The position numbers and the translations under genes were made by a program. The notes beneath the pieces were generated by a model. It was not told where the DNA came from. It searched no databases and saw only the letters and a list, made by a program, of their open reading frames with translations. Below, in pieces: positions 26,701 through 62,251 of a DNA stretch of 64,000 nucleotides; position 1 is the first letter of the stretch, and every line of letters starts with the position of its first letter. The stretch covers positions 42,957,049 to 43,021,048 of the forward strand of contig CM046856.1 of NCBI GenBank assembly GCA_025617745.1, in the 5' to 3' direction. Source of the stretch: Heliocidaris erythrogramma (lineage: Eukaryota; Echinodermata; Echinoidea; Camarodonta; Echinometridae).

Positions 26701-27189
26701 CTTCCTGGTGTATTTGATACTATGTTTCCTCTCAATCGATCAATTCATAATTACCCAACAAGACAATCTAACGAATTCCACTTACCACGTTTTAGAACAC
26801 TTTTCGCAAAGAATACTTTTTTGTATGATGGTCCTAGATTTTGGAACTCTCTTAGCAATGAAATTAAAAATAGTCCGTCTTTAGATACTTTTAAAAGAAA
26901 ATTAAAAACATTTCTACTTAAAAATTATAGAGGTCTTCACAGCTAATTTCGCTCACTCAACCGGCTTTACGATCTGTGTTACCTTTTCTTTTCGGCAATG
27001 TTTCGTCCTGTTTTCTAGCTTTGTCGATTTTTCATATTTTTTATTGACTTCGTGGCAGTTCCTTCCTTTCAGCATCTTTTTTGTCTCCTTTTGTCCATGT
27101 TCTGTTCTTTGTCCCTGTCCTATCTCTGTCTTGCTTTTGCGTTTGTTCCTCGTTATTGTTCATTTTCTCTTTTATTAATCTTCGTAGGC

Positions 27190-39687: not shown

Positions 39688-40504
39688 ATGGGTTGCATGT
39701 GCTGCTGTTATAGATCTCCAAAGGAGGAGGAACCAAGTTCGCTTGTGAAGAAGGGTGATTCCCCGGGAGCAAGTCCAAGGAAATCTTATGGTGCTATTAC
39801 AATCCAAGAGCAGTCTCCAGATCCAAAACTAGCATCATCTCCAAGAAAATCGCCTTCTGAACTCTTATACACGGAACCACCAAAGTCAGCCCGTGTGAAA
39901 TCGCCAGAGACGACAAAAGATGAAGAGACATTGAGTTCTGGGAAATCTCCTGAGAAGAGGACATTGGCAGACATTGCAGAAGCTGCCCAAAATGTATCTA
40001 GTGCCTTCCCAACAAAAAAGAAAACCAGGACTTCCACCCCAAGCCCATCAGTCGACAATAAAAACAATGCCAAGGCAGAAGTTTTTGAGGAACGAGGAGT
40101 AGATGATGTTCTATCGATTCCTCGTGAAGGGCAGACGGGCAGTCCTGAATCAATGGAATCTGACACTTGTCACTCAATAGGTGAGGAGGAGGAGGAAAGT
40201 GAGGATGCCAGGATACTTCGGATGTTGCCGAGTGTTCTGCCATCCACCGATCCTGGAGGATCGCAGACCCACCTGGTGCCAAAGTCAACATCCCCAGGTT
40301 CATCAACTCACGATGTATCAAAGGACTCAAAGAAACAATCTAAGGCCAAGGACTTCATGAAGAAAGCTGGAAAGAATATGAAGAAAGCCAAAAAGAAAGT
40401 GGGTAAAGGGATGGAAAAGATGATTCATCATAGTAAAAAGAAGGAGGAGGAGGATACCAAAGCCCAAGGTGATACCAAAGAAAGAGCAGATTCAACAAGT
40501 ACCA
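39688..40504 (+). CDS. R-SNARE-like gene, exon 1 (start codon, acylation motif, basic patch)
   Basis: The ATG is in a good context (ACCATGG). An in-frame TAG lies six codons upstream, so the start is well fixed. 272 codons plus 1 nt; the donor is GTAAGT at 40505. Without splicing the frame would stop after four more codons. Repeated SPRKS/SP motifs (SPRKSYG, SPRKSPSE, SGKSPEK) suggest proline-directed kinase sites. The exon may have non-coding 5' exons that I cannot place. Confidence 0.85.
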
Positions 40505-43500
40505 GTAAGTACATGTAGGTCGTGTTATTAGGTGGCTGTACCTCAAGTACAGACCACCTCATGTTTTTGTAAGAATTTTTCTTTATTTTATTATTATTTT
40601 TTCTTTATTTTCATTTTTACCCACTTTTTGTACACTTTTTTGTACACACAATATCTTCAAAACGACTTTAATATTCAAATGTACTCAAATTTGGTAAAAT
40701 GGTAGATATGGTTTTTCAACATAGTCAATGCATCGAGATGGCATCTAGGCACCATTATGTAAAATTCCAACATATGCTATACATGTATCTCTGCAATAGA
40801 GAGTCATAACATAACCATATTTGGCATGATGCAAGTTACTTAAAAGAGAAATTAATTGAACGTAGGGTGCGTGCGTGTACGCACGCGTCGGTGAAGTCGC
40901 ACACGGGCAAAATCTGAAAATGCTCAAAATGGTCTTGGATCAATTTTGGGCATGTTTTAGACAATTTTAAACATTTAAAAATTTTCCACACATGCGCTTT
41001 AATATGCGCACCCGTCAATGTTCCGTATACAGCATGAAAATGACTTATGACTTGATCCTACATGATTTCTATAATATTTTCTGAAATGCACGCATGCGCA
41101 CGTACTCGCACGTGCGCACAAAAAGTAAAATATGCCCTGGATTGACTGGAATAGACTGTGCATGTGCTGTAGGGCATTGTTGAACATTTGCAATTGGTGC
41201 CTGCATTAATTCCCTCCATCCAGTACGCGCATGTGTGCAACAATATGCACATGTACGCGTATTATGTGCATGTGCGAAAATATGTAAAAATGCTTTTATT
41301 GGTCTATAATTGATTCTAAAGTTGATTTCACATCATTTTGAATTTTAAAAAATGGACTATGTACCCGTCAATGCATTTACATGTGTATGTAGGAACATGC
41401 CTACTTCGTACATCATTATTAGTTCTTTATCGCATTTTAAGATTGTTCCACAGCCCACCTCTGTAGTTGTACTTGTTCAACTCCAGTTTATATTCATTCA
41501 TTTATTTTTTAATTGTATCCCCCGGCAGAATGCCGGAGGATACTTTGGATTCAGCTGCGTTATGATGCCGCCGCCGTGTCATACATGTATTCTTGTGTGC
41601 GCTCAAACTGCCACATTCCTGGATGGATTTCTTTCAAATTTTGTATGGAAGTGTATCTTGGTCAAATCTACACATCTTTAGTTTTTGGTCATCGCACCTA
41701 TAGTTTTTGGTGATGCTGCCACCAGTGTCCCGTCTTTTATAGGGTCAAAGGTCATACTTTGGAGGATGGAGTGAGTGCAGGCCGCATTTTTGGATGGATT
41801 TCTTTCAGATTTTGTATGGAGATGTATCTTGGTCAAATCTACACATCTTTAGTTTTTGGTGATGCTGCCCTCATTGTTCCATTTTTTATAGGGTCAAAGG
41901 TCATATTTTGGATGATATCTTGTGTACGCTCTACAGGCCATATTTCTTGATGGATTCCTTTCAAATTTTGTATGGAGACGTATCTTGGTACTACATGTAT
42001 CTACTCTTTAATACTTTTTGATAATGCTGCCCTCATCTTTTATAGGGTCAAAGGTCATACTTTAGTAAATATATCTTGTGTGTGCTCTTAAGGTCACAAT
42101 TCTTGACAGATTTCTTTCAAAGATGCATTATGCTCTAATCTATACACATTGTTTTGGTAATATTGCTCCTCGTGTTGACAGTAGTCTGGGCCACTGGTGG
42201 CAGTCTCTAATCATCCTTTTGTTTGAGGGAGGTTCTTTGTCCCTCCTTTGAACAAAAGGATGACGCAAAAATCGTTGCCAGTGCCGGGGGATACATTCGC
42301 ATTGTGCGGCAATGGACATTTCTAGTTTTATTTATTTATTTTTTAATTTTTTTTTTATGGGGTCTGTCAGTTAAGGGCTTGTCACTTATCAATGGTAATA
42401 ATGATACAGTCGGTATACTGGATGAGAGTGTAAGATTTTTACCGATTAATGCTAATGAGCCGTCTGCACCAGTTGATTTTTTATTGGATTCAATATATAC
42501 TGATAGACTATAGACGTTTATTAACCTATGGGGGACTGCGTATGCTATTTGCACGCTGTTTAAGTGTGAAGCATGGAGCTTGATTAGCGGGCAGCTGTTG
42601 GGGGTGGAAGGGTCCTAGCGTACATGTAGGGCAGTGTACATTTATAGCCGTTATCTAGCATTCCTCACAGATAATATAATAACGCATTTGTTTCCAGTTG
42701 GGTCTGAGCCAAAAGTAGTCAACATAAACCCTAATTTTTCATTTTAAGATTTGTGTCTGCCCTTGTACATCACATGAAAGCTGAGAATCTGTAGTTTATG
42801 AAAATATACATGTCCCTGCATGATTGCGTTCCGTTTAAAAAAAAAAATAATATGGAAAAAAGCGCCCTCAGAGCGCGACGGGACAGAATTACTAGAAAAA
42901 GCAGTTATTAAAGTAAAAAGTGCAAGGGCATTTGAAATATAAAGTTTAGAAAACTATATGCAATATTATTCAATGCCCAATGCCAGTTCCAGCAACATTG
43001 TTATAATTGGGTTAAAATTTGAACTTCTTGGTGCAAAATTGTATTTTAAGGCACTTTGACACCCCCCTTTTAATTTTTTTTTGTAGCATAAACTGGAGTT
43101 TATAGACTGAGGTCTTATAAAGTATTGCAGCGAGTCTGCCTTGTCGCCGATAGAGGGCGACAAACATTTATTATTGAACTTTTAGCTTTTCATAACAAAT
43201 ATTTAATTTATATTACTTTTGTCAAGGATGATGCCGATTGATGAAGACTCGCTATTAAAGTTATAGACTTAGATTCGTTGTAATCAAAGTATATGATTGA
43301 AATTGGTGATTGGGTGTAAAAGGTAATGGAGTTACACAGACAAAGAAAAACACAGGTTTTGGATAAAGATTTAGGTTTGAACTCAAAAACAAAAACTCAT
43401 CTTTTATTCAACATTTTACATCATTCACAAATCTCGCCACTGTTACAATCAATAAAGTTCTTATTATAATTACTACATAACAATTCCAGTATTTATTACA

Positions 43501-44642
43501 AGTGTTTTAATGCTTTTATATCAATTCATTTCCAAAGGGAATTATGTTCTTTAATTATTATTCAATTAAGTTTCTAATGGGTGTTATATTATATAGAAAA
43601 CTTTGATCTATTACAAGGTTATACCGATTATCAGTACACGTAGTTAATTTAGTTTTAGTTTGCCAATTCTTCTAAGTTCTTACCAATTTGCGTAATAAGT
43701 TCTATACCGAGAGTAAATTAAGGATAAGAAGGGAGAGTTCTGTAGGTATAGGGAGGGAAGTTCTGTGGAGAGGGAAGTTCTATTTGGCCCGGAGGTTCTG
43801 TGGGGAATGAGCCAGCCGAACTCGTGAAAACTACTTATATTTATGCTCTCTATGCGTACGTGGGGGAAAACCTGTCTTGGCCGCATGATCTGATTGGCCA
43901 ACGCATAATCTACATTACTTACAGCGCACGACGCGCATTTTTCTACACGTCGTGAAAACCTATCTTAACGATAAATTGTTAAGAAAATGCTTATTTATTC
44001 TTCTTTCAATACATCATATAACAAATGAAATATCTTATACCAAAGACAAATCTATATTACAATGTTTTATATAATTATTAGATTATAACTTATAACAATT
44101 AATTCATAATAAGTGATTTAGTTTGTAATTCATGCTTTTGTTGGATCGAAACTTATCATAGCTAAACAATACGTCATACACGAATGCGCGTACGACGGAC
44201 TTGCTTTGTATCAAACAACGCAATAATTTCCAATATTTCTCGACACATATCAAGTAAAACATTCAGACATGTAATCTATTTTGTGAATAATTGCCGAGTC
44301 CACGGAATTCTTTAGTCTATTCGTGATCACTGATTTCATAAAAGCTATATTTGGATGTAAAGTTTGAACACTCAAATGTTGGAGCTAGCTAACTATACCG
44401 GGATTATATGTACCGGCACCTGGGAATCCAGGTAGTGCGATTTAGAAGTTGCAACAAGGTAAGCTAAGGCTTAAAAATGAACGTAAGCCTATGCATTGCA
44501 TTTATATTTCACAAAACTACGAGGAAAGAGTTTTGATATGACTTATTCATGCATATAGCTCCTCGATAAAGTTATTTACAACATTTTCTTACCTGAATAT
44601 TTCAAGTATAATAACAATGTAGAATGCAAATGGCAGGCCGAA

Positions 44643-44674
<32 letters not shown>

Positions 44675-47600
44675 GGAGAGAAAGAGAGCAAGAGAGGATG
44701 GTTCTGCCAAGACTATCAAACAGTGTATATATGCGTAATAAAAGTAAAGAGACGGGGTCGGCTCGTTACAGTATCAATGAACTATCGTTCCTTCACTTCT
44801 GTACCATTAAAATTGGTTCCCTTTATATTTCGAGAAGAATTGTGATATGTTACTTTTTTTCCGTCCCGTCGCATTTAGTGGGTATTTAAGGGATTTTAGG
44901 CGTGACGGGACAGAATTTTGCATGGAAAGTACAGTCCCATGTATGTCATTTGATGTAAGTATACTTTTTTTTAACCTTAGCAAGTTATTAATTCATTTAA
45001 TTTGAATAAACAATAGAGATTCACACTTTTCTTACCTGAACAATTTGGTTCTACCACAATTTTTTAGAGAAAAGAACTATTTGATGGTATAAAAAATTTC
45101 TTTTCAAAAGCCCCATTTGTTTTGTACATGTACATGGTGCAAAAGTGTCCACCCTCTCCAATGATTTTCATCTCTTTAATTTGAATCAACAATAAAGCTT
45201 GCCACTTCCCTGTGCCTTAACATTTTATTTCTAGCATAGTTTAAAAGAAAAAGGTATAGTTGGATGATATTTTAATTTTTTGTATAAATCCCCAATGATT
45301 TTGTACATGGTGCAAAAGTGTCCGTCCCATCGCATTCCGTCCTTTCATGCGACACCCATTCCATCCTTTCGTGCGACACCAATTCATCAGTTTTCAAATA
45401 AAAAAAATTTGATTGGGCCAAAGTCTTAGCTTCATGGTTGAATGTCATATATGATGCACCACGCGGTACCCCGGGGTACCACGTTGTGTAGCGCCATCTC
45501 ACGTCCACTCGAGTACAACCCCATTATGAATGCAGTGCGTGTACGTAGTCATTCCCAATGCATGTTAACAGTGCAGTGTTATTATGCATGTTGTACGTGC
45601 ATGCACTGCTGCTCGCGCATGCTAGCTAGTCCTCCCAAGCGCAGTGGCTATAGCGCTAGCTCCCGCGGCTTTAGAACTTGATTTTATTTCACTTCTTCCT
45701 AAAAAACATCACATCATCGTTACTGTATTTTAGCTGTCAAACTTTCAAACTTAGACAATGGTGGAAGGTGATGGTGGATACGGAAATTTACTGTAAGGGA
45801 AAGGACGTAAAAGACGGAAGATTTCAAGGACCGAGAAAGTTGAAAGAGCACGATATCGTGCAATACAGAAGTTGGGGGACGAGCAGGCCGCTGATCTGTG
45901 TACATGGTCATGATGGTAGCGGTTTTTAGGAAGGCGAGTGACGGGGAAGACAAGGAGCAGGCTGATGGTGTTATTATGACCCTGCTGGCCCAAGCCCTCT
46001 CTCAAATCGAAGAAATAGAAATCAATAACAGAATAATTACTCAAAACAACAATGAATTTGAGAAAAATGCATGACTTATAGGATTTTTTACAAGAACATA
46101 GGACACAATTAAATGTTGAAAAAATCACACCAAAATAATTTCCCACTTTTTGGTAACCCAGGGTACAGCCCTAAAAAAAAATTAAATAATTCAACAAAAT
46201 GGCCTATTTTTATTTGGTACCCCAGGGTACCATTTATGTCATCATATGCTCTATCATACTAATCAAAAATCACAATACGTAGCTAGTCTTCAGTTTTAAC
46301 TTCGATAGAATTTTACTTTGAATCTGTCTTACAAAATTTCACCATTCTATCGTTCCGTCCCGTCGCGCTAACAAAAAATGTTTTTACCATAGAACGGAAT
46401 TACGATCAGTCTTGTTTGTAGTGGAATTGTTCTTCAATGTAAACTTATTATATAAGTATAAAGATATGCAGCAAGTAGCATTTCTTATTTTCTTGTGAGG
46501 AGAATAAGGATATTGAATCTGAATTTTTACGTGTCAGTGTATGGAGATTACATCATCAAAAAAATATTGGACGGTTTTACCAAAAAATATAGTGACCGTA
46601 TATGGTTAGGTTGCCCCTGTAAGTCACGCCTATTTGACCTGGATATAAATGATTGTGCGCATGCAGCTAACGTAACGTCCCAATGAAATTGCACTGCGTT
46701 TGTGACCGTATATGGTTAGGTTGCCCCTGTAAGTCACGCCTATTTGACCTGGATATAAATGATTGTGCGCATGCAGCTAGCGTCTTGTCACAATGAAATT
46801 GCACTGCGTTTGTGACCGTATATGGTTAGGTTGCCCCTGTAAGTCACGCCTATTTGACCTGGATATAAATGATTGTGCGCATGCAGCTAGCGTGACGTCA
46901 CAATGAAATTGCACTGCGTTTGTGACCGTATATGGTTAGGTTGCCCCTGTAAGTCACGCCTATTTGACCTGGATATAAATGATTGTGCGCATGCAGCTAG
47001 CGTGACGTCACAATGAAATTGCACTGCGTTTGTGACCGTATATGGTTAGGTTGCCCCTGTAAGTCACGCCTATTTGACCTGGATATAAATGATTGTGCGC
47101 ATGCAGCTAGCGTGACGTCACAATGAAATTGCACTGCGTTTGCGACCGTATATCGTTAGGTTGCCCCTGTAATTCCACGCCTATTTGACCTGGATATAAA
47201 TGATTGTGCGCATGCAGCTAGCGTGACGTCACGATGAAATTGCACTAGACTGTAGATCTACATGTAGAGACGTACATCTAAATATGTTAACGGTTCTGTG
47301 TTCTTGGAATTTAAACATTAACTTTTCTTGTTGTCATGGAGACGAACTTCCAGTTTGCACTTATTTATTAATACAAGCTTCGATTGCCATGACAAGATTT
47401 CTACAAAATGGGGAGTAGAAATCTTGTGGAGTAGGTCTAGATCTAATGTAGATATAGATCTAGACTCTAGTCTATCTAAATAATTATTATAATATTGGAT
47501 GACCATTTTTCGTGGAATACGGGAAATTATTACCTATATAAGGCATTTTAGCGGCGCATTAAAAACGCATATTTTTGTCCGCTTGATTTGCGCGTGCAAT

Positions 47601-50600
47601 ATGCTCTCAAATTGCACGGAACGCTGAATTCCCCATAGGCTACAGTACTAAACTTGCCGTGCAATATTATACCGTATTTTGTCTGGTCTGTTTGCGTGCA
47701 CGCAAATAATGCAATGCATACACACATACACACATGACGTCATAAAGAGGTTAAGTTAAACTTGTGTGATCACAATGAACTATGATGAGGGGCTCTATTA
47801 ACTGAATATGGTTGGTTAAAATGATTTTTATTAAGTTCTAAATCATTTTCCTGTAGGGTATAGATAATAATAATTATATTGGATGACTTTATTTCATGGA
47901 ATACCAGAAATATTCCACTCGTTAGGGCCAATATTGCACGAATCGAAGATGAGTGCAATATTGGCCCTAACTCGTGGAATACATGTATTCTCTGGTATCC
48001 CATTCAGAGCCATCCAATATAATATAAATATTGGTACTCGCTGTGGAAAAAAGGCCATCCAATATTATTTGATTATTCAAAAGTGTCAATTTTTTCTTAC
48101 ATGTAGGCCTACATGATCTTCAAAACAGAATGATGAATTGTTTGTTATTAGCAGGTTTGATGGCCATTTGTATCTTCATATTCTTTTGGCAATAGAAAGA
48201 TGCATTGTTTATCCTTTTGAAGGCATGATGTTGCCTATCGAGGCATGAACTCGTTCATTCTCCTCGGCTTAATAAGCAATACCCCCTACTTCTATTACAT
48301 GCGCCCCATCAGGCGTGATGAGAATGCTGCAGACATCACCCCAGTATCATGCTCACTGCTGTTTCATCTTCATCACTCTCTTCATATTTTATCATTCTGT
48401 TTGGGATTTATTATATTGGAAGACCTTTGATACCTGATATCTCGTGTTTCTATCATAGCAGCTGGAGTAGACATCTTGTGTTCATATGATCTGTGATCAT
48501 TATATCTCTAAAATGAGTAAGCATATGTTATTATGGTGTGATCTCGTAGTGTAGTTGTTGTCGTAAAGACACTTGATGACATGCATCAACGGTGTGTGTC
48601 CTGGGTATAATTGGGTCATTTACATGCAGCTGTGATGGATGACATGAAGTGCCGGGTGATTATACAGTGCGATGTAATGGCGTGTTTATGTCCTGGTAGA
48701 AGTGATACTTTCTTTGCTTTATAATTAATTTTTTAGCAGATTATGAGCTTGCTGTGATCATTACGAACTACGAACCTCAAATGAATTTACGGTGTACATG
48801 TACATGTAGATAAAAAAAATCACCAGCTACATGTGTATATTGTGTGTGTACATGTCGTTTTTCCGAAACTGAAAAAAATAAACTGAAAAAATTCGGTCGA
48901 AACACCCCAATCATAATTTTATTGCATTCAGGTAGAAACATATCATTGAAGCCACATACATGTAGTCTGTAAAAATACCTCTACTACCATAAATTAGGCT
49001 GAATATTACCAAAATTGTCTTTACAATTATGTCAAATTACAACTTTTAATTCACCAATGATTTGGTCGTTTGCGTTCCAGACGTGTCTTTTCTTGCCACT
49101 CCATTTTGCTAAACTACCATATTCCTTTATTTTCAATGTCTTTGAACATAATGCTCCAAAAATCTCCATATGTTACAAGTAAAATGAGAATGATAAGTAC
49201 ACAGCATAAAGCCAATATAAACATAGCAACATATTAAAGTTTTTAAATGAGGTGGATCAGATTGGGTTTACATATGATGACATAAATGGTACCCTGGGGT
49301 ACCAAATAAAAATCGCCAATTTTTTTGAATTAATTTTTTTTTAGGGCTGTACCCTGGGTTACCAAAAAGTGGGAAATTATTTTGGTGTGAGCTTTACAAT
49401 ATGCGGCAACGGATTTTCAACAACAAGCCTTTTAGACAATAAATCTGAAATATCCTCAGACACAAACTCAGAATGTGTCAACGCAGATTTGTTATTAGGA
49501 AAATGAATCGCTGGTGATGTATTGATAAAAGGTAACTTATATCCAACTTGAATAACTTCAAAAACTGAATCAGGTGATCCTATTTTTCTCCAAAATTGAA
49601 GTGAAGCTCTTAATCTATCCTTAACTATGGGTTCAGAATTTTTTTTTTCATATTCAAAATAATTTTTGAAATAAAAATCCAAATCGTACCGTTCTTGCTC
49701 TATATCAATACTTGTAGACGTACTGTCATCCACTAATGCAGTTGAAGGAGTGGAAAGGGGAAAATTCATGGCTTCTGAAAAGGAATATGAAAAGCGACAC
49801 TTTCGTCATACTTACATGGTTTATCATACATCAATTATTGACTATACCCTTGAACTAATTACAATATTCGTATTAAGAGATCTGATTTAAACATATGTCT
49901 CATAGCTATGATCTAACCAGATGATCTATTTACAATTTACTTTTCTTTATAACTTCAATCCTTTGTTTAACTTTCCTTTCATCGTCTGTCATTTCACAGA
50001 CTTAAAATTACCTCACTTTTACCAATTCTGGGTTCCAGTTTCTTTGATTGGTTTTCGATTCTGACCTGTGGAAGGACAGTTGGCTCTCCAGTGGCCTGGT
50101 TTACCGCATGCGAAGCAGATATCGTTTGCTTTGGCTGTACCCCATAAGCTTGTTGTCTACAATATTGCTGAAATGCTGGTCGAAATCCCCAAGGATGAAA
50201 ATAAGCACCAGAACCACTAGGAAGGTTAAGGTTCTCTTGAGGAACTTCATAATTGGGTCTAGCTCTAATAGAGGGAGGGCGGTTAGATTTAGTTTTGCTT
50301 CTTTTAAATCCGGCCTGTGCTTGCCGTATGCGTTTCTCATCCTCAAAATTCGATGCCAAATCGTCTCTAAGGTACTCCTCTACAACTTTCCAGCCTAATA
50401 GTTAAAGGAATATAACATCAATCATCCGAACAGAAATGTTCATAATTAACTACAACAATATGTTCAATTATCTTCAAATTCTTTAATATATCAAAGTAAC
50501 ACTTCATTATTAGTAAATTAAAAATTGAAGCTAAGAAAAGGAACAATTTCAACAATATAACCTTTAAGTAACCTCACATATCTGCTATACTCGCCTCCTT

Positions 50601-53405
50601 CAGATTTGTCAGCTAGACGAATGAGCTTCTTACTTTTCTTAATATCCACTATAGCTTCAATGACAATTTCTTTGGCCTGGCCACTCCTACCACTTTCAAG
50701 ATCAGTCGATGCCTTCTCCAATTTCTCCTGTACAGTATTATTAAACTCAAACTGAAATTTATTCCCTTTATATTTTAATAAAGGAGAGTTCAGCCGCTCT
50801 TTTAAAATTACTCAACTCCTGAGTATTGGCCGTAATTTTTCTGTCGTTATCTCCTTTGAACGTCGAAAGTGTCGAGGTCAAATAATCCTTGAAAGAACTG
50901 AGTGCCTCCTTGATAGTGTCTCCTACTACCTGTGCTGTAAGTGGAGGCGATATTTCTTCACCAGGATTAGCCATACCCTAACCGGGAAAAGAAAGCTGCT
51001 AGTAATTAACACAGGGAAATAAGAGCTCAAATCTGAACGAGTGTCTGCAGACCCGACGAACCAAGTCAATGACCCTCCTTCACTACCACACCCTGTTCCA
51101 GGGCTGTGCTCACTCAACCTGAAAAACATTCCTATGCAAATAGGGATTCTTCGCGCTCTTCTAAGGAAATTTATATGTAGTGAAATTCCAAAGACAGAAA
51201 ACTAAGTACATTAAATTTACATACGGTTCAATCCGCTGTTTTTATCAGTTTCTCAGAAGTAAAAGTAGAAAATGTAAATTACAAAGAACTGGTACATAAA
51301 CAAGAAATAAAGGTTTGAATAATGAAAAGTCAGAGTAGGGAGTCAATACCATGACACTGATTTAAAGTTGATACACTTTGTGATGTCACATTTTATCTAA
51401 TGTGCAATTATTTCAAATAAAGACTGGATGAGATTGACATAACATTTAAAGATAACCAAGGATGTTTGTACCTTTGCAAATAATCATAGACAATAACATT
51501 TCCAAATTTCCAAATTTCTGCGATTTAACATTGACTATTGAAAGTTCTAGAATTAGTTTGTGAGATCTATCGTAATAAATATGATAGTGATTCGGTATGA
51601 CGAAATAATACAAAAGTATTTGGATATTAAGCATTGCTACAACAGAAATCCAATAAGCTTTTAAGTATATGTATATAAGACAGTATATGTGAAGACAAAA
51701 TATTGCTATTACAGAATTCATATTTTCACCTTTAACAAAATAAGCTTGCGGCAAGCTTAAAATGAGCCTTAGAAATGATGGCAAGCTTACCGCAAGCATG
51801 CCACATGCTTGCGACGAGCTTGATGCAAGCTTGCAGAAAAAATGGCAAGGAAAATTATTTACAATAACTATGAAAACACTGATTTAGGGTTTGACCCTAT
51901 GCGAATCTCAAATTGACAATTTGGAGAGTCGATTGTGACATACTTGCGGACAACTCTCCTGTTTGTTGTACACAAAAATACCATTAATTTGCAGTTTTTC
52001 TCTGTAGCGCCTTTACCATTGGGGCAGTACTAAAAATATATTGGAAATAGCATATTGTGTTAGGTCCTCATGAAATAAAAAGATCCTGCTGTATAATACC
52101 TTTTGAAAAAAAAATGACATTTTAGTGATTTGGGTGTTGGGGCAAATGGGGGAGTTGTCCGCAACTGCATGACATTGACATTACCTGTTCAACCAATTTG
52201 AAATTCCCCTATGTATAGTGACAGCAGCTTTCAAAAATTCATAACTTTCTTATTGCTTGTGCAAATTCATTCAAACTTTCACAAATTTGCTTCTCTGATT
52301 TTTCCTCTTTCTTTCAGAGCAACTTGCCATTAAGGTTGGATTTCCCTTTTAATATTAAAGCATGTACCAGAACCTTGATATTGCCTTATCATCTTTACAC
52401 AACGGCTAATATTTTTCCTATCAATTGCTCTGTATAGATGCATACAATGAGATGTAGTCTAAAAAATGATAAAAGAAAATGAAATTAAAATTTGGGAAGA
52501 TTACTGGACTTGTTTCTCCATTTGAATAATGCACATTTGAGATAACGGTATGTGGGTCGTTTGTCAATTATTGTTATTTTTCATTTGATGTCATCTGTGC
52601 CTGTCAAGTTCTGTGCTATTTTATCTCACATTTTGGGAATGACTCAACACTTTAACAGTTGCATGTAGACCTCATTTGACAGTTGCTAGGTACACAATAC
52701 TGGCTGTCTCCCAAAATCTTCAAGTCTAAGGAAAGTTGTTGTGGCATTTTTGATGAATCCACATTCTATGTAAATATGTCGTAGGCAAAGTGAACAGCAC
52801 AGGGTGAAGGTAGAAGTCTACATGTATTTTTCTTATCATTCTGAATTTGTGCTGCTGTGTTGTTGGGTTGACAATGCTTTGTCTTCGATGTGCATTTGGA
52901 AATGTTGATGACGGTTTCTGTAAGTTAAACATTTAGTTATTCATTTATTTATGTGGCCTAAATATTTAAAACTAGAAAATCTTCTTTCTTTTGTCACTTC
53001 GTTGCTCTTGGTGGTATCATTGCGCTCCATATGACGAAAAGCAGTTCTATCACATAAATAGTAAATAGGCCTACATTTATATTTTGTATAGTGATGACAT
53101 ATTTTGTTTACATTTCTGTGAGAGATACATGTATGTATGGTATGATTTTAAGATTTTTTTCTTGGTTATAACATTTAAACAAACTTAACTCGATCTACTG
53201 GTATTCTAACTTTTTTCTTGCTTCTCTCTCTCTCTTTCTCTCTCTCTTTTTCTCTCTCTTTTTCTCTCTTTTTTTCTCTTTTTTTCTTTCTCTTTTGTTC
53301 TCTCTTTCTCTTTTTTTCCTCTCTCTCTCTCTCTTCTCTCACTCTTTCTCTCACTCTTTCTCTCACTCTTTCTCTCACTCTCTCTTTCTCTCACTCTCAC
53401 TCTCA

Positions 53406-53438
<33 letters not shown>

Positions 53439-56400
53439 ACTCTCTCTCTCTCACTCTCTCTCTCTCTTTCTCTCACTCTCTCTCCTCTGCTTCTGTCCCT
53501 ATCTCTCACTCACTTTCTCTTTTCTTTTCTTTTTATATTAACTTGTAACATGGACATAGGTTTCCAGTAAACTCGGCATGCGGTTGGAACAACAAGTTCA
53601 ATTTCCAGTCGTATTTTGCTCGTTACTTTGCTATTATATGATTTCTACCAAGTTTATTTGGCAGAAATCATTCATTTGTGGTATTGAACAAATTGGGTGT
53701 GAATGTGTGAAACTCTGTTTTGTCATTACCAAAAAGATAACATGGAATACCAGTTTGAGGCAAAATAAGAAAAAACAACACTATTATCGTTCTTCTATCT
53801 CTGATTTGCTTTTCAGATGAGACTTCATCTACCAGTAGTAATCAATTCAAGAGAGTCAGCTCAGAGCGCATGAAGTCAAAATATGCACGAGGTAAGTAAT
53901 GTGAAGCTGGCTTTTAAGATACATGTAACTAGCCTTGAGCTGAGTCAAGTACAATGCACACATCCATATTAAATATACATGTACATCCATATTGTACACT
54001 TTATAAATCATACAGTAGAGCATTGTACATGCATTGTGGGTACTTGATTGCATATGGGAGGGAGGCTGGTTATAAAGAGAGAGAGAGAGAGGTACAAGTG
54101 ATTAATTTTTGTACAGGAGAGAGACGGAGATTGAACTGCCCCTGAAGCTGCTCATCATGTTCATGATTTTTACTACTTAATTACATTCAATATTGATATA
54201 GGAATGTTTTGATAAACTCCTCTCATCACAAGTGTGGTATATTGAGTGAAACTTTTCCATATTTTTTCTCTTTTTATACCCCTGCCAAACGAAGTTTGAA
54301 GGGGGTATATAGGAATCAGTCAATGGTTGTGCGGGCGGTTGGGCGGTCGGTCGGGCGGTCGGTCGGGCGGACGGTCGGGCGGACGGTCAGTCGGGCGGTC
54401 TGTCTTTTGCAAATCTTGCGGATCAAACTACTTTCTCAGTTTTCGACCAAAGCTCATGAAATTTGGTACACACATTGGTCTTACTGGGAAGATGTGTACA
54501 ACATATTTTTTTGATGTGTCGGAAGCTACGTTGCCATGGAAACAGCATATCTATGGCAGTAAATCAGGGAAAAATCTTGCGGATCGAACTACTCCCTCAG
54601 TTTTCGACCAAAAGTCAAGAAAGGCTGTTGTCACGGGGTGGGGGTATTAATCATCATCTTCAGTGATATTTCTAGTTAAAATTTGTTATAAATAGCATGT
54701 TCGACATTTGATCTCTGATAAGGTCTAGCTCCTTTTTATACCCCGCCAAACGAGGTTTGAAGGGGGTATACTCAGTGGGCGTTTCAAAAAAAAGAAAACC
54801 CAACTTTGAAAATGCCCTACAAGTGGACTATATATTTACCGGCGTTTAATTTCATATCATATGAAAGAGTAATTAATTTGCTTTTCAATGGTAACTTGTT
54901 TAGGTTTCCAGGGTCACGCATCAATGAACTCCATTGTCTTCAAAATTTTGTACAAAATTCCAGTTGGTTCACTTTCTTGTAAAACACAATAGGCACGGTT
55001 GGAGTTGAATGGCTTTGTCAACTAGCTTGGTTGCTCTTCATGGCCATCCGTTTATAGTAAGCAAATCTCATTATGATTAATTTTGAGCCTTAACAAAAGT
55101 CTTATGAGCTTCACAAAGCATGGAATGAGTTGTTAGTCATAAACTTTGACCAAGGAGAAGTGAGATCTTCAGAGAGCACAGAGAACATGTTCGTTTGTTT
55201 TAAGTACTGCAGCTATCTTCGCCAATTTTGAACTAAAAGGTGACATTTTTGAAAATCAGCAAAGTAAAATCTTGAATCACACATGTGACTTTTTGATTTT
55301 CCTTCTTTATGCTCTTTGTCTTTGAAATTGCAATTCTTTGTGATATTGCAATCCTTTTAGTTCGCACTGGGGTTTTTTGGCATGCAACCTTGTTAAAATT
55401 CACTGAGACTGTCTTCTTTGCAAAATGATTCCTATTTGAAAAGGGTTTCAAAAAGCAAAAATCCTGAGTCAGGGTGAATACCATCTCATTAACCAGTTAA
55501 CACAAATTTGAGAAAGAAAATTATTGCTGGAGGATATTTTGGAGTCGGCAGCATTCCGTCCTTTATAGGGTCAAAGGTCATATTGTCTTTTGTGCGCTCT
55601 ACCATATTTCTTGATGGATTTCTTTCAAATTTTGTATGGAGATGTATCTTGGTACAATCTACAAACTTATACTTTTTGATAATGCTGCCCTCATTGTTCC
55701 TCGTTTATAGGGTCAAAGGTCATTTGTCCATTTCGTGCGCTCTTCTGCATTTCTTGACAGATTTCTTTCAAATTTTGTGTGGAGATGTATCTTGGTCAAA
55801 GGTCATATTTTAGTGGATATCTTGTGTGCGCTCTGCAGGTTACATTTCTTGACAGATTCCTTTCAAATTTTCTATAGAGCTGCATTATACTCTAATCTAC
55901 ACACATTGTTTTGGTGATGCTGCTCCTAGTTTTGATCATTTATTTAATAAAGCTAAGGGAAACATGTCTTCAACATGGAAGATCATCAATAACCTCCTTG
56001 GTAAAAGTAAAAAGAAGAGAGGTTCTGATTTTGAAATTGATGGTAATACTCAAGGTTCAGCTGTCGCTGATGGTTTCAATAATTTTTGTGTAAATATAGC
56101 TCCCAAGTTGTTTGCTAATTTTCCTGTAAGCGATCATTATGATGATAACTATCAGTGCAATCTTCCCAACAATCCTCACTCGTTTTTTTGTAAACCAATA
56201 ACCGAAAAGGAAATCATTGACATTGTTTGCAAAATGAAGAATGGTATTAGTCCGGGATTTGATGGAATAGAAGTGTCAGTTGTTAAGAAAATAATACATT
56301 TGATCTGTAAACCTCTTGGCGCCCCGTAATTTTCAGTCTATCTCTATTTTCCGGTATTGTTCCAAACAAACTCAAAATTGCAAAGGTTATCCCCCTTTTC

Positions 56401-59400
56401 AAATCGGGACAAACCAGTGATTTTTCAAACTGTCGTCAACAAACTCAATTTCTTGCCTAAATCAATATTACTCAACTTATATTATTCACTGTATTATTGT
56501 ATCATTATTTTGGCATCAACATCTTTGTTACTTTATACAATGCTCACACAGAGCCCCTTTTCAGATGATTAAAAGTCATGAATATGTTTGATTTATGTAA
56601 ATTTAGACTGGCTCTGTTTATGTATTCATGTCACAATAAGCTATTACCTTCATCCTTATCCTTATCCTTATCCTTATCCTTATCCTTATCCTTATCCTTA
56701 TCCTTATCCTTATCCTTATCCTTATCCTTCATCCCTATCCTTATCCTTCATCCCTATCCTTATTTTCTTGCCAATTCTGATATTCATTCATATTCTACAC
56801 ATTATAAAGATGATTTTCTTATGCCTAACGTATGACTTGCAACAACTAAAAAACAGTATTTTATGTAGGACCTACATGTAGGCTTTGGAACTCACTATCA
56901 CTTGCCTTAAAAGTATGTTCTATGAATGTATTCAAACATAGTTTTCAGAAAATGCTTTTAAATGGACCTGTCGATGACTGGTCATTAGGGAGCTGTTTTC
57001 TATCTATATAGCTTATTGGTCTTTAACTGCTTTCTTCTCTGACGACTCAATCTGTATTTCCCTCTTTTCTATTATCTCTCTAACACTAACAGTCGATCCA
57101 TTTCTCTGTGTTCATCTTTCTTTTGCTTCTGACTATTTTCTTTTCTCTCCCTCCTTTCTCTCACTCTCTCGCTCTTACCTTCTCCCTCTCTTACCTTCTC
57201 CCTCTCTTACCTTCTCCCTCTCTTACCTTCTCCCTCTCTTTCCCTCTTTCTCCTCAACTTCTCCCCCCCCCCCCCCCCCCGGTGGCCATCTTGTCTGTTT
57301 GTTTGTTTGTTATTATTGCTTTGTACAAGGGCTTATAAAAGCACTAAGATGTCCATCATCTTTAATTCAACCATCACTCATGTCCATTTTTATATGTTTG
57401 TTTTATATATTGTAAATTGCAAACTGTTTCTTTTTAATGCCTCATTTGTATCATTGTTTTCTATTGTATGCTTGAGTGGAAATCAACTTTGAATTGAAAA
57501 AACATTAACATTAAAAATATGTATAATGAAGAGAGGCTTAATGAGAGGAAAAAGGTAGAGAGGAGAGATTGAGAGAGAGAGAGAGAGTGACAGACAGGCA
57601 GAATTGAAGGGAAAAGTATGGCTTTAAAAATAGAAATAGGGAGGTGCAATGAGAGGAAGTAAGTAGCAGGAGAGAGAGAAAAAAATTATCCCATTTTGGA
57701 AAGTGAGCAATAAAAAGGCAAGAGGACCAAAATAAAATAATTATAGGGGGAAAACAGAGAACACTATTCCTAGTGTTAGAAGACACTTGTTGTATCATTG
57801 ACTTTGCACATTTTTTTCTGTATCCATTGAAATGTCAAGAGAGGGATCTACTATCCTTTACAAAAGAAAAGTGAGTCTCGTAAAACTTGTCAGCCATCCA
57901 ATTTCAATTTATGGAAAATGAACCTAAAATTTGCTCACTGATTTGCATGTGAACAATTGTCCTCAGTAGGCATTTTAATCACTAAAATTCTATCTGTCAA
58001 AATAATGGATTTTTAGAAGCAGTGCAATCTTACCACTATTGCTTACCACTATTAAATGTATGATGAAAATACAAAATCTTTTCCAAAGCAGTGTCACTTT
58101 GCAGTGACACTTTGCATTATTCTTTTATCCAGAGAAGCCATGAATTACACATAATTTAGTAGCAGAAAGAGCAGAAATCACTCAAAATTTTGACTTTATT
58201 TCTGTCACAGTACATCATGCTATTAGTGAATAAGAATGATTGATTTAAAATAATCTAAATTGGCATCACAGAGTGGAATTTATTATCACTTTTTTCATGT
58301 ACATCATATGAATACATGTACGTCTCTACACAATTTGTAAACACATAATCCAGGCCCCCAACTCTTTCTGTATGCGCGATCTGATACGTCACATGATCAA
58401 CATGATCAAGAAAGGCTCAGACTGATCGATAATGAACTTAATAGGAGGATCTGCTCTTGGGAGGGAAAAATGCGGCACGTCAGTTCAACCACCTACATCT
58501 TATAATTAACGCACACTTAACCAGCAGTCCTCGCTCACACAAAAATGAGAAAAACATATAAATCTAAAAAGATGCTACTTACTTTTTTAGAAATGAAGAT
58601 TGATTCATATGACATTAAAGCTGAAAAGTCATTTTTTTTTAAAACAGCTTCACTTTTTGATATTGAGCTAATATTAAAAAAACTACGATGAGTTGAACCA
58701 ATAAAAAGTAGTTTCTGGACGCGTTTTTGAGCTAAAACTGAGCGTATTTTATGAAGTGCGAAAGAGTGGACATGACGTTTCAAAATGAATGTCATTATTT
58801 TGTAGTTGCATGTTGTAATTACATTCAGGTTGGTTCATGTGATATAATAGTGAAAGAAAAGAATATCAGGTACCAGTTATAGCAAGCAAAGCTGATTCAT
58901 GGCTCAGACCTCCAGAAAATTCTGAACTGCTATGGGCTATACATGTATGTTTGTTATTTTGTTGGAGTCGCTGTTAGATCAGTGACATTGTTAATGTTTT
59001 GAAAATCTCACTTGGATTTGACAGATAAACTTGCTGCTCTAGAGAAGAAGAGAGAAGAGGAAGCAACTCATAAGTCTGCACATGGATTCCCAGATCCAAG
59101 ACAGGTACACACTCTTCTTTTTACCCTAGTAGTAATGCCTCGTTCACCCTCTAAAAATAAAAAAAGCTCTAAAAGCTGTTGCAAAATAGAAATTTGTCAC
59201 ATGTAAATGAATGGCAGATGGAGGTGAAAATGAGTAGCTGCGCTGAACAAAGCCTCCTACATGTATGTATACAGAATTGTGAAGTGTACTATGCATTTGT
59301 TACTTTATATGCCGCTGCAGGTTTTTTTTTTTAATTGGAGGTGGTTCACCGTGACTTATGCGAATAAGGCTTACTGGGGAAGTCCACTCTTGGTATTAAG

Positions 59401-62251
59401 TACTGGTAAGCAGAAATGAAAGTAGGAAAATGAGAGAAACTGATCAGTGACAGTTGTAGGGAAAATCTGATTAAGGATAAGAGAGTTATGTACATGTACA
59501 ACTGCAAGTACATGTAAATACAACATGTAGTAGTGAACAGGAAATTGAAATGAAAAAAATTTAAAGCTGATACACAGATCTGGTAGCAAAAAGGAAATTG
59601 GAAAGAAACGTGTTAAATATAATCTCATATTGTTTTCCATGTATCAAAAGATGTTATAAAATGGGTTCAAGAATGTAGCCATCCTGATTGGTCAAATAAC
59701 ACCACGTGACTGTGCAAAAAAAAGTACTAGCGCACGGTAAAAAGGCCCTAACGCACAGCTGAGCTGTGCATATGCGTACCTCTGGTGCGTGCAAACTTAA
59801 AACGCAATGAAATCGCGTAGTTTAATTGTCATTTTAGCGCAGGGATTACATGCGCGCACTGAAATGCGCATGACTTTTGTTGGCTGGGCTTATGTGATGT
59901 CATCCGGGAAAGCAAATGGCAGCCTCCATGACTGCGACTCTTGGCGTTTCTATGGGGCTCGTAACCATTTTTATAGAGTTAATAATCATATTACCAACCT
60001 GTTAATAATCATATTACCAACCTGTTTTATAAAACTATTAATACATGGTTGTGAGTTCTTGCGTTAGTGCGATCCGGCAACACGCAGGTTTTTATTGTGG
60101 TGTCCAACACACTCGGCCAGATCGCACCAACGCACTCCCAACCATGTATTAATAGTATATATTTGTTTGAGATAATTTGGTATTCCATCAATGATTTCCG
60201 GGGAATAAATATATGTAAGGAACGCTAGATCACAGCAATATACTGACCTACGCTAGAACCTTTCCACCCGATGGCTCCCCACACAACAATCGGCTTCACA
60301 TGGAGATAGCATGTGTGTCACTCTATGTAGGTTTTGAACGTGTGTATGGTGTATAGTGCACGCTGAAGTTGTTTATATCTCCCTGACCCGGCACCTAAAT
60401 TATTTTTGCCTCTCATTTGTTTAATATGCCACTTTAGGACGTAAAATCTTCACGGCATCTTTGTATTGCTAGTATCTTGCTATTTATCAACAAAAATTCA
60501 ATAAATCTGACAAAAAGCTTTTGAGGCTTACCAAAACTAAATACCGGTATTACCTTTAATATAGTCTCATACAGGTATGGTGAGTTTTTGTCCTTGATTT
60601 GAAACGATTTTGAGCAATTCTAAATTTTGCACGTGTACTGACGTGCGGACGTACGCGTACACATGCATTTAATGAAATGACCGTGACCGGACTGACATTG
60701 ACATTGATGAAAACTGAGTGAAGCGATTTTGAGTAATCATGCTCACGAAAATGTGGGAGAAAAATATAAATAAATAAATAATAAAGAATGAAAGAAAATT
60801 CTGACAAAATTAAGAGGTGATCCGACAGACTACCTAATAAATTTCATTCATAAAGCGCCTTTTCATGAGATACAATGGGCATGACAAAGAAATTTGACAA
60901 AAATGTTATTAGGGGCTTACTAAAAATTCCATGAGCTTTATTATTTGCAAATCTACTCATTTACATGTCTGTAATGAATAATATTTGTTTTGGATTTATT
61001 TTTTACATTTCTTTCCCAACATCCATTCTGATATAGACCTAGATATCCCATGGCATATGAGGTGTTACATGCAGTTAGAATATATTCGTATCAACTAATA
61101 ATCATAGTAGCTTACCAGTACATACATGTGCATGGACATCCTTACTTATACTTGCCCTTTTTTTTTAACAAAGAGTAGTGATTATCATGAACTTTAGATT
61201 TTGTGATATTCCTCAGATGATGCCCTGCAAGTCAGTACTTACCAGAGTACCTTTGTATTGTAATCATGTGATTGTGCGTAGACCAGAATGCATGTGTAGA
61301 ATTTCATTCCAAGCTGCTATCTCGCTAATGTAACATTAATCATATGGATTGTAATGATTATTAATATTTTTTATAATGAATCATCAGTTCATATCACTTC
61401 ATTTGATGAAAATGTCCATTCCATTGTCACCATTGAGAGCTCGTTACAGCATGTACATGTAGTATGCTTTTTTGCAATCATCTTTTTTGCTTACAGTGTG
61501 TGTTTCTATGACCAGTATCTTTTTTTATGTTATCTTATGTTTCCTCTCCCTCTCTTTGTCATTTTTCTCTATGTGCCTCGTAATCTTTAACCTATTCTCT
61601 TCAAGATAATATTTCACTTCCCTTTTCATTGATTAATCACTTCCTATTTTTCACGTGACATATCTAAAACATTATCCTTCATGTCTTTTCCCCCTCAATA
61701 ATCTCATTTATGCATTGTTTTATCTTGCTTTACATCAAACACCCTACCCTACTACCCTGGCATCCTTAACCTGCTCACCCTGCTAACCTGCTCACCCTGT
61801 TACCCTGGCATCCAACTCAACCTGCCCTAATTTACATTACTCAACCTACTACCCTCATCAACTTTGCATCCCAAACTGCCTCTGCCCTGCCCCGCCTCGC
61901 CTCGCCTCGCCTCTCCTCTCATGTTTTACATCACTCACCCGACTACCCTTAATATCAACCTGACATTTGTAACCCTCATCCCAACCCCAACCGGTCATAC
62001 CCTGCCACTTTAACATGCCCTATCCCTTTGTACCTTACATTACTCAACCCAACCCACCCCACCCCACCCCTCACCACCCTGTACCAACTTGCCCCCACCC
62101 CACCCCACCCCACCCCACTCTGCAGGCTACCCATGAACGAGGTGAGAAGCTAGGTGAACTAGAGGACAAGACGGAACAGATGCGGGACCAGGCAGCCAGC
62201 TTTGCTCACAACGTGAGTTTGTTGAAGAACCGTCACGGTTCCACGAGTTGA
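39688..62251 (+). CDS. Predicted N-terminally acylated R-SNARE-like protein, 4 exons
   Basis: Join 39688-40504, 53817-53891, 59025-59104 and 62126-62251: one frame of 365 residues, all GT-AG, phases 1, 1, 0. Residues 1-7 are MGCMCCC, like dual-acylated SH4 motifs (Gly2 myristoylation plus Cys palmitoylation). Residues 8-215 are Ser/Pro/Lys-rich and probably disordered. Residues about 216-253 are strongly Lys-rich, with four acidic residues at the end. The last 41 residues match the C-terminal half of R-SNAREs such as tomosyn and amisyn: zero-layer Arg329, then L333, L336, T340, M343, A347, F350, V354, L357 at layers +1 to +8. No transmembrane segment is present. The N-terminal SNARE half is interrupted by GFPDPRQ, so an exon could be missing. 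Family membership is inferred; no named orthologue is recognised. Confidence 0.75.
41513..42330 (+). repeat. Dispersed hairpin-ended tandem repeat element, copy 2 (3 monomers)
   Basis: Head TGTATCCCCCGGCAGAATGC then CGGAGGATAC (a hairpin). Three monomers each with GGGTCAAAGGTCA at 41742-41754, 41891-41903 and 42045-42057. Tail with GCCACTGGTGGCA, AACAAAAGGATGACGCAAAA, GGGGGATACATTCGCATTG and GGACATTTCTAGTT. Same order and strand as copy 1. The head TGTATCCCCC and tail GGGGGATACA form short terminal inverted repeats. Confidence 0.85.
42360..42513 (+). pseudogene. Unrecognised coding-like fragment
   Basis: The open frame encodes NGNNDTVGILDESVRFLPIN and PSAPVDFLLDSIYTDRL, ending TAG 42511. Composition is protein-like, but no splice partners or family are recognised. 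Probably a relic of a mobile element. Confidence 0.2.
44645..44693. repeat. (GA)n microsatellite
   Basis: GA-rich run with AAAG interruptions. Confidence 0.9.
45749..46074 (+). pseudogene. Unrecognised coding-like segment with frame break
   Basis: The frame starting at 45757 encodes MVEGDGGYGNLL, then a stop, then GKGRKRRKISRTEKVERARY. After further stops it encodes VFRKASDGEDKEQADGVIM and LLAQALSQIEEIEINNRI to TGA near 46072. A CpG-richer stretch (45440-45670) lies upstream. It looks like a decayed gene or transposon ORF; the family is not recognised. Confidence 0.25.
46594..47248 (+). repeat. 110-bp satellite, six copies
   Basis: GACCGTATATGGTTAGGTTG starts copies at 46594, 46704, 46814, 46924, 47034 and 47144 (last copy has one extra base). 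Each unit includes GGATATAAATGATTGTGCGC, ATGCAGC and a site that is TGACGTCA in copies 3-6 (46893, 47003, 47113, 47224). Copies 3-5 are nearly identical; copies 1 and 2 differ at this site. Confidence 0.97.
47476..48075. mobile_element. Palindromic MITE-like element
   Basis: AATATTGGATGACC near 47490 is inverted as GGCCATCCAATATT near 48052. Inside is a near-perfect hairpin, 47876-48022: TATTGGATGACTTT, GGAATACCAG, TTAGGGCCAATATTGCAC, loop, GTGCAATATTGGCCCTAA, CTGGTATCCC, CATCCAATATA. Confidence 0.7.
48076..49257. other. Intronic sequence, nothing recognised
   Basis: AT-rich with ACATGTA words. No ORF or repeat with clear identity. Confidence 0.4.
49377..50975 (-). mobile_element. DIRS-like retroelement fragment: gag-like ORF and start of RT ORF
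   Basis: Minus-strand reading from 50974: MANPGEEISPPLTAQVVGD..., then, after a frameshift, FQFEFNNTVQEKLEKAST and LIRLADKSEGG; after a gap, WKVVEEYLRDDLASNFEDEK and a zinc knuckle CFACGKPGHWRANC (50055-50115). The second ORF (49769-49377) has RLRASLQFWRKIGSPDSVF, VGYKLPFINTSP, NNKSALTHSEFV and ISDLLSKRLVVE, the stretch that precedes RT in DIRS-type elements of marine invertebrates. It then stops where the 46125-49390 inverted repeat begins. RT core and recombinase are absent. Confidence 0.65.
51745..51845. repeat. AAGCTTGC-rich micro-repeat
   Basis: Direct and inverted copies of GCAAGCTT / AAGCTTGC and GCTTGCGGCAAGC crowd about 100 bp. Confidence 0.75.
53222..53530. repeat. (CT)n / (TTTCTC)n microsatellite
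   Basis: About 300 bp of CT and TTTCTC units, 287 bp upstream of exon 2 of the R-SNARE-like gene. Open frames here are Leu/Ser or Arg/Glu artefacts. Confidence 0.95.
53817..53891 (+). CDS. R-SNARE-like gene, exon 2
   Basis: The acceptor TTTTCAG ends at 53816 and the donor GTAAGT starts at 53892. 75 nt, phase 1-1, encoding NETSSTSSNQFKRVSSERMK and SKYAR. It is Ser/Arg-rich and probably disordered. Supported by strong splice sites and fit with both neighbours. Confidence 0.7.
54276..54660 (+). repeat. Palindrome-headed repeat with (GGTCGGGCGG)n minisatellite, copy 1
   Basis: TATACCCCTGCCAAACGAAG then TTTGAAGGGGGTATA forms a hairpin head. It is followed by about 75 bp of GGGCGGTCGGTC units and two direct copies of AATCTTGCGGATC.AACTACT and TCAGTTTTCGACCAAA. 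A head-only copy lies at 54737-54771. Confidence 0.75.
54737..54771. repeat. Palindromic repeat head, copy 2
   Basis: TATACCCCGCCAAACGAGG then TTTGAAGGGGGTATA, matching the head at 54276. Confidence 0.8.
55530..55928 (+). repeat. Dispersed DR1-carrying repeat element, copy 3 (partial)
   Basis: Starts GCTGGAGGATATTTTGG. Monomers have GGGTCAAAGGTCA at 55568-55580 and 55710-55722, and TGGTCAAAGGTCA at 55793-55805. The tail hairpin is missing: the last monomer ends at GATGCTGCTCCTAG, where the CR1/Jockey-like LINE fragment begins. Confidence 0.8.
56648..56765. repeat. (CCTTAT)n microsatellite
   Basis: About 18 hexamer copies, some changed to CATCCCTAT. They expand within the LINE fragment. Confidence 0.97.
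57115..57281. repeat. CT-rich minisatellite and poly-C tract
   Basis: CTTACCTTCTCCCTCT is repeated about four times, then a C run at 57263-57280. Confidence 0.9.
57501..59024 (+). other. Intron of the R-SNARE-like gene, nothing recognised
   Basis: GA-rich patch at 57540-57680. Otherwise AT-rich with stops in all frames. Confidence 0.4.
59025..59104 (+). CDS. R-SNARE-like gene, exon 3
   Basis: The acceptor TTGACAG ends at 59024 and the donor GTACAC starts at 59105. 80 nt from phase 1 to phase 0. Encodes DKLAALEKKREEEATHKS, a charged helix, then AHGFPDPRQ, which would break it. Confidence 0.75.
59754..60163. repeat. Hairpin-rich repeat in last intron
   Basis: A 17-bp palindrome GCACAGCTGAGCTGTGC near 59754. 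A direct 23-bp duplication of AATAATCATATTACCAACC (59981-60025). Long inverted arms 60021-60077 and 60115-60163 (CTATTAATACATGGTTG..GTGCGATC against GATCGCAC..CAACCATGTATTAATAG). Confidence 0.75.
60164..62125 (+). other. Last intron of the R-SNARE-like gene
   Basis: No exon found. 61735-62125 is a pyrimidine-rich minisatellite (CTACCCTGGCATCC, CTGCTCACCCTG, CACCCCACCC) that provides the polypyrimidine tract for the last exon. Confidence 0.5.
62126..62251 (+). CDS. R-SNARE-like gene, terminal exon with SNARE helix
   Basis: The acceptor CTCTGCAG follows a C-rich polypyrimidine tract. Encodes ATHERGEKLGELEDKTEQM, RDQAASFAHNVSLLKNRH, GSTS and TGA at 62249. ERG-K-L-L-E-K-T spacing matches the tomosyn/amisyn/VAMP zero-layer region. 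It ends with no hydrophobic tail or CAAX box. Confidence 0.85.
   Translation, partial: ATHERGEKLGELEDKTEQMRDQAASFAHNVSLLKNRHGSTS

Follow-up and report, generated by a model that had tools for sequence, protein, structure and literature searches.

A candidate tail-less R-SNARE with a predicted N-terminal lipid anchor, encoded between Pumilio and LARP4 in Heliocidaris erythrogramma

Between a Pumilio gene and a LARP4-like gene in Heliocidaris erythrogramma lie two coding exons, one opening with the sequence MGCMCCC and the other encoding half of an R-SNARE helix. Do they belong to a single gene, and, if so, what would its product do? An initial annotation had described an R-SNARE-like protein held by N-terminal lipids instead of a transmembrane tail; its observation is partly confirmed here and its interpretation is partly supported. 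The reading that we favour, at somewhat less than even confidence, is one forward-strand gene between Pumilio and LARP4 that would encode a tail-less regulatory R-SNARE of the tomosyn/amisyn kind, acylated at its N terminus. The window, that is, the whole stretch of 64,000 nucleotides analysed, corresponds to positions 42957049-43021048 of contig C4 in a 1.06-Gb genome of 26 contigs. The features are collected in Table 1.

Table 1. Features of the window and its flank (window positions unless marked otherwise; extended positions run past its end)
Feature	Position	Strand	Details or basis
Pumilio (PUF repeat) gene	701-11454	+	last exon found ends at stop 11454
Exon 1: start codon, MGCMCCC, Ser/Pro/Lys-rich stretch, polybasic patch	39688..40504	+	phase-1 donor
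MGCMCCC: predicted N-myristoylation (Gly2) and S-acylation (Cys3,5,6,7)	39688..39708	+	motif
Polybasic amphipathic patch KAKDFMKKAGKNMKKAKKKVGKGMEKMIHHSKKKEEE	40342..40452	+	residues 219-255
Candidate exon, 75 nt, phase 1-1	53817..53891	+	splice sum 10.9
Candidate exon, 80 nt, phase 1-0, ends GFPDPRQ, no SNARE layers	59025..59104	+	phase bridge
R-SNARE C-terminal half, layers 0 to +8, stop codon (SNARE exon)	62126..62251	+	PF00957 and PDB matches
GTGAGT inside SNARE exon, possible alternative donor	62213..62218	+	score 3.95
Two AATAAA/ATTAAA-type signals	62925..62944 (starts 62925 and 62939)	+	past the stop; also expected by chance
LARP4-like gene (L004-L007)	C4 ~43.043-43.078 Mb; extended positions 86-120 kb	-	coding segments

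The two neighbours delimit the region in which such a gene could lie. One Pumilio exon matches PF00806 in Pfam with an E value of 2.2e-28. On the opposite strand, one exon matches LARP4 (PDB 6i9b, E 2.1e-23), and we take the remaining coding segments of the 86-120 kb stretch to be LARP4 as well, from their position; this stretch begins about 24 kb beyond the SNARE exon. Only three forward-strand segments between 11455 and 86000 (extended coordinates) have a codon score above 17, namely exon 1 (50.4), the SNARE exon (22.1, with some preceding repeat included) and 19286-19702 (27.4), the last of which is low-complexity. Further forward-strand segments with scores of 11-17 are mostly repeats, and some are unexplained.

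The SNARE exon encodes ATHERGEKLGELEDKTEQMRDQAASFAHNVSLLKNRHGSTS (62126-62248) and is very probably a genuine exon for the C-terminal half of an R-SNARE, judging from its matches. It matches PF00957 with an E value of 7.9e-6 and 26.0 bits, where the Pfam cut-off is 26.4 bits; the best form, of 37 residues, reaches 26.3 bits and still misses that cut-off. A profile search with the joined protein, as the initial annotation had proposed, does return a match to PF00957, at 20.0 or 19.9 bits and hence under the cut-off. In the genome-wide PF00957 search the exon ranks 20th of the 44 matches at E<=1 (E 0.045, 23.3 bits). Against the PDB, R-SNARE chains make up ten of the 13 rows at E<=10, the others being two NEMO constructs and one ABC-transporter chain; the best matches are VAMP4 (E 3.7e-4) and then tomosyn (0.029). 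The codon log-likelihood ratio (LLR) of 17.6 is reached by none of 5576 open intronic controls. As first described, the exon carries the zero-layer Arg followed by acceptable residues at layers +1 to +8 (R, then L L T M A F V L). Three of 1500 open Arg-led stretches in the window fit the layer pattern, the SNARE exon among them. Taken by itself the pattern is thus weak evidence, and it is the sequence match, not the layers alone, that identifies the exon.

Its relatives were sought among the R-SNARE exons of the same genome, in a comparison that starts from the 44 PF00957 matches at E<=1, takes in the loci of 30 of them and covers the 23 loci read minus L011 and L027. The tomosyn-type SNARE end of this genome is located on contig C6. 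Its N-half exon ends in GEVAKARI at the donor GTAAGT, and its C-half is the last exon, running from A-LYERGQKL to KKWYQF and a stop. The SNARE exon of the window starts (A-THERG) at the same codon and in the same phase, with a phase-0 intron before A-x-x-E-R-G, and both exons begin at profile position 26 of PF00957. The last two intron phases are 1 and then 0 in the genome's own tomosyn and in the window model alike. The tomosyn layers read R, then L L T M A F A I, and are identical to those of the SNARE exon from +1 to +6. The other R-SNARE exons read are divided elsewhere: VAMP-like exons break at profile positions 41-48 and a Sec22-like pair at 34/35, and a Ykt6-like exon (L020) begins nine residues ahead of the Arg, compared with four in tomosyn and the SNARE exon.

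Ungapped scores over the 37 residues, with z values from 5000 shuffles, are highest of five for a provisional human amisyn sequence (84, 16 identical, z 8.3). The genome's own tomosyn follows (72, 14/37 identical, z 7.9), and then VAMP4, with provisional ends (71, 14/37, z 7.6), a provisional VAMP2 sequence (56, 11/37, z 6.4) and the genome's own VAMP4-like protein (49, 12/37, z 5.8). Tomosyn and VAMP4 are nearly level by sequence, so it is the intron position that favours tomosyn. An R-SNARE-like half helix with no membrane tail is well supported, and the intron position links it to tomosyn and not to VAMPs. Membership of a VAMP gene was also considered and is rejected on the different intron position of the VAMP-like exons read and on the lack of a tail exon in 62300-86000.

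The initial annotation had named a SNARE exon lying in a WD40 tomosyn gene as the finding that would count against it. This was not seen: the tomosyn-type SNARE end sits on the other contig, and a scan found no tomosyn-like N-half exon upstream of the SNARE exon either. In the codon scan no coding segment that could hold WD40 propellers stands out, and a search of the genome for Lgl_C found nothing, its controls being equally silent; the genome may contain a second tomosyn gene. Regarding amisyn, PF15277 (the Sec3/amisyn PH domain) matches two exons in the whole genome; both are on C15, and neither is near the window gene. A Sec3_CC match lies about 3 kb from them on the same strand, and the pair is therefore taken as Exoc1; a second Sec3_CC match, on C17, contains stops. 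At the sensitivity of the PF15277 search, no PH-type amisyn was found genome-wide. Separately, several synaptobrevin-like exons (PF00957 matches) are clustered at ~6.27-6.35 Mb on C19, a local R-SNARE expansion.

Exon 1 is coding beyond chance. Its 817 nt are open over 272 codons and end at an GTAAGTAC donor, its codon LLR is 45.1, and none of 40,000 stretches of equal length sampled from 40601-58300 is open. The well-fixed start reported for MGCMCCC holds: the ATG at 39688 stands in an ACC-ATG-G context, and a stop in the same frame precedes it by 15 nt. The exon is single-copy in the genome (the sole other match has an E value of 4.2), which rules out a repeat. Searches with it returned one chance-level row from Pfam (E 4.2), no PDB match at E<=1 and nothing from NCBIfam, a collection built for prokaryotes whose silence says little.

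The N terminus, MGCMCCCY, fits G-{EDRKHPFYW}-x2-[STAGCN]-{P}, a PROSITE-type N-myristoylation pattern, and the four cysteines at positions 3, 5, 6 and 7 are predicted, by analogy, to be S-acylated. Double acylation, as originally proposed, is thus a prediction from the motif. If exon 1 and the SNARE exon are parts of the same gene, the product likely has an acylated anchor. The Ser/Pro/Lys-rich stretch of the exon, with 12 Ser/Thr-Pro pairs, is presumably disordered. The Lys-rich patch previously noted is real and includes the 18-residue span whose hydrophobic moment is the highest in exon 1 (0.57, net charge +7). Four more phase-1 donors scoring above -1 occur within the exon, at 40181, 40199, 40403 and 40469, so shorter forms are possible, some without the basic patch. 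The donor at 40181 is strong (score 6.3), and its use would skip the patch.

Exon 1 closes with a donor and therefore needs a downstream partner; the SNARE exon opens at an acceptor and needs an upstream one. A direct join from the main donor is impossible by phase; an internal phase-0 donor is present at 40399 (score 2.4). The phases can be bridged in a joined model, 39688-40504 + 53817-53891 + 59025-59104 + 62126-62251, which gives exactly the 365 residues first reported; the four junctions counted at that time should be three, as four exons give three. All splice scores are based on general base frequencies of vertebrate splice sites and are not trained on the host genome. The codon table comprises eight kinase exons and the tomosyn exons, about 6 kb, and includes the last tomosyn exon. 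Combined splice and codon scores were computed using a table with about 45 out-of-frame tomosyn codons, and LLRs and p values using the corrected table.

Over 124 kb, in all phases and on both strands, the 75-nt candidate has the best forward-strand splice sum outside Pumilio. It is one of five forward-strand candidates scoring at least 10, the other four being inside Pumilio. Of the ten such candidates on the reverse strand, eight belong to the LARP4 stretch at 93-121 kb; the remaining two are at 81626-81717 (10.8) and 33328-33395 (10.3). The 75-nt candidate has a nil codon score, no better than intron (p 0.16), and reaches 10.7 for splice and codon combined, between the control maxima of 13.1 and 9.8. 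We regard it as a moderately supported exon candidate, good but not unique, as near-equals occur by chance. The 80-nt candidate, which is required for the frame, heads a list of 25 phase 1-to-0 bridges. Its splice sites are weak, its codon p value is 0.044 and its combined score, 7.65, falls between the two control maxima (5.2 and 9.7); it is within the control range and statistically weak. On the same combined scale the N-half exon of tomosyn scores 19.6. A further forward-strand stretch, 59321-59405, has a splice sum of 9.9 and phase 0-1, and its phases do not fit by themselves.

Exon 1 and the SNARE exon probably belong to the same gene. The strongest alternative is that they are two unrelated things, exon 1 belonging to a lineage-specific gene, for an acylated disordered protein, that has a different 3' end, and the SNARE exon being either the 3' end of another transcript or an old relic of a tomosyn 3' exon. 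The distance of 21.6 kb between them speaks for this, as do the no more than moderate support for both bridging exons and the missing N-half, which a relic would predict; degeneration of the tomosyn SNARE motif is described for Saccharomycotina (PMC2639358). However, an old relic at 14/37 tomosyn identity would hardly have kept its frame open, its codon bias intact and fitting residues at layers +1 to +8, and the forward strand after Pumilio offers no 5' candidate stronger than exon 1. We consider the separation of the two exons unlikely, though it is the most serious competitor of a single gene.

A second alternative concerns the N-terminal half of the helix. The half-SNARE pointed out by the initial annotation is seen in the model splice, where layers -7 to -1 read K E T S F P T, with a proline at -2; the hydrophobic layers -7 to -1 of an R-SNARE are absent from the joined model. 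A missed exon might restore the full helix, which would turn the product into an ordinary full-length R-SNARE of the tomosyn/amisyn type with a new N terminus. The N-half of tomosyn is indeed a separate exon just upstream of the last one, and short divergent exons are easily overlooked. However, scans with three N-half queries, one from the genome's own tomosyn and two provisional ones (tomosyn/amisyn type), found no such exon: for exons ending with GT on the forward strand of 15001-62125 the best scores are 11, 6 and 13, and the minus-strand controls with GT demanded give 10, 7 and 11. The true tomosyn N-half exon, the positive control, scored 67 with a provisional mammalian query. When GT was not demanded, the best scores in 40001-62125 are 18, 23 and 18. 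A missed exon is thus improbable as the explanation; either the halving of the helix is genuine, or the absent exon has diverged beyond the reach of the scan. SNARE assembly normally begins at the N-terminal end of the helix, so that binding to Q-SNAREs may be weak when layers -7 to -1 are missing.

The 3' end agrees with the absence of a C-terminal anchor or CAAX box claimed earlier: the frame closes with a stop, and the model contains no hydrophobic segment, the best 19-residue Kyte-Doolittle mean being 0.14. A scan of 62300-86000 for a phase-0, hydrophobic transmembrane-tail exon returned a single poly-Phe artefact, and the control strand three. Thus, a transmembrane or lipid tail as in VAMP is absent from both the joined model and the tail-exon scan. 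The GTGAGT donor within the SNARE exon was left unmentioned in the initial annotation. Splicing there would make 62126-62212 an internal phase 0-0 exon of 87 nt with a splice sum of 9.4, and the protein would continue, perhaps to a transmembrane tail as in a vesicle R-SNARE. Good as this donor is, we consider such a continuation the least probable reading, because read-through retains Val at +7 and Leu at +8 and gains 1.3 bits in Pfam (26.3 instead of 25.0), the homologous tomosyn exon is terminal, and the tail-exon search did no better than its control strand.

Taking the single acylated, tail-less gene as the working model, we propose the following mechanism. The front end, with its predicted N-myristoyl and S-acyl groups, would act together with the basic patch to keep the protein at an acidic membrane, on its inner face; the plasma membrane is the most likely one. 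From there a long linker rich in Ser and Pro, ~290-315 residues from the Cys cluster and ~45-70 from the basic patch, would let the half-helix reach Q-SNARE acceptor complexes of the syntaxin/SNAP-25 type. There, layers 0 to +8 could fill that half of the R-SNARE groove which lies nearer the membrane, and this occupancy would delay the last zippering step of VAMPs, the protein acting as a tethered decoy. With no transmembrane tail, it could not itself drive fusion. The basic patch could also mask PIP2. An inhibitory role is in our view about as likely as not. A narrower version is doubtful: an acylated half R-SNARE at the plasma membrane, anchored at the end opposite to the VAMP anchor, acting as a clamp on the C-terminal half of the Q-SNARE groove alone and evolved from tomosyn-type 3' exons in a genome in which no PH amisyn was found.

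We compared this candidate with known systems. Tomosyn (STXBP5, R.Reg) shares with it the terminal R-SNARE exon, the intron position and phase, the lack of a membrane tail and layers +1 to +6. Tomosyn has WD40 propellers and the N-half of the helix, whereas the window gene has the acylation motif, the disordered stretch and layers 0 to +8 only. Amisyn (STXBP6) is likewise a small, tail-less R-SNARE with a membrane-targeting N-terminal part; it combines a Sec3-like PH domain with a complete helix, neither of which was found for the window gene. The complexin accessory helix is similar in that one model proposes it, in the place of synaptobrevin, as a clamp on the SNARE bundle at its C-terminal end; unlike the window gene, complexin is not an R-SNARE homologue and is not known to have an N-terminal acylation anchor. 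MARCKS and SH4-type anchors share the N-myristoyl site and basic patch and have no SNARE helix.

The literature provides the following context. Tomosyn is presented as a decoy SNARE in Drosophila in PMC8612732, where the myristoylation mentioned concerns a calcium sensor. According to PMC9715400, amisyn competes with VAMP2 and is fusion-incompetent for lack of a transmembrane anchor; a 2024 study argues against simple competition between tomosyn and VAMP2 (PMC10965968). In one model, the complexin accessory helix excludes Syb2 (synaptobrevin) from the C-terminal groove (PMC8377282). Masking of PIP2 is a known action of MARCKS peptides (cf. PMC11864169). As to distribution, amisyn is called vertebrate-specific in a title cited by PMC8066043, another paper (PMC2374702) gives no similarity in insects, and a coral annotation includes an amisyn by KEGG (PMC3750612). 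No myristoylated R-SNARE was found in titles or abstract starts of the open-access literature, which is weak evidence of novelty, and no paper on half-SNARE peptides was found in open-access literature.

If the single-gene reading is true, the protein separates a targeting domain from the full SNARE helix, two features that are joined in tomosyn and amisyn. It would then offer a natural test of whether a lipid-tethered C-terminal R-SNARE half suffices to gate fusion; gating by the C-terminal half also underlies complexin clamping models. It would further point to more than one origin of tail-less R-SNARE regulators, with a PH domain as the anchor in one case and acylation in another, and the candidate could be a brake on secretion.

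Several other features of the window were recorded. An open forward-strand stretch at 45765-45923 has a codon score of 15.9, matches no Pfam family at cut-off and is unexplained. By eye, open stretches on the forward strand at 25222-26881 and at 55853-56329 resemble LINE-type reverse transcriptase remnants, the latter without a Pfam match. Open reverse-strand stretches at 49377-50977 contain a CCHC-knuckle-like motif, also by eye, and are probably a gag remnant of a mobile element; 49380-49805 on that strand has no Pfam match. A 110-bp tandem repeat occupies 46592-47246 with 5.9 copies at 97% match. Finally, a repeat at 9442-10017 is built of TTAGGTTAGG/TTTAGGGTTGCAATTGGG units and has a telomere-like look.
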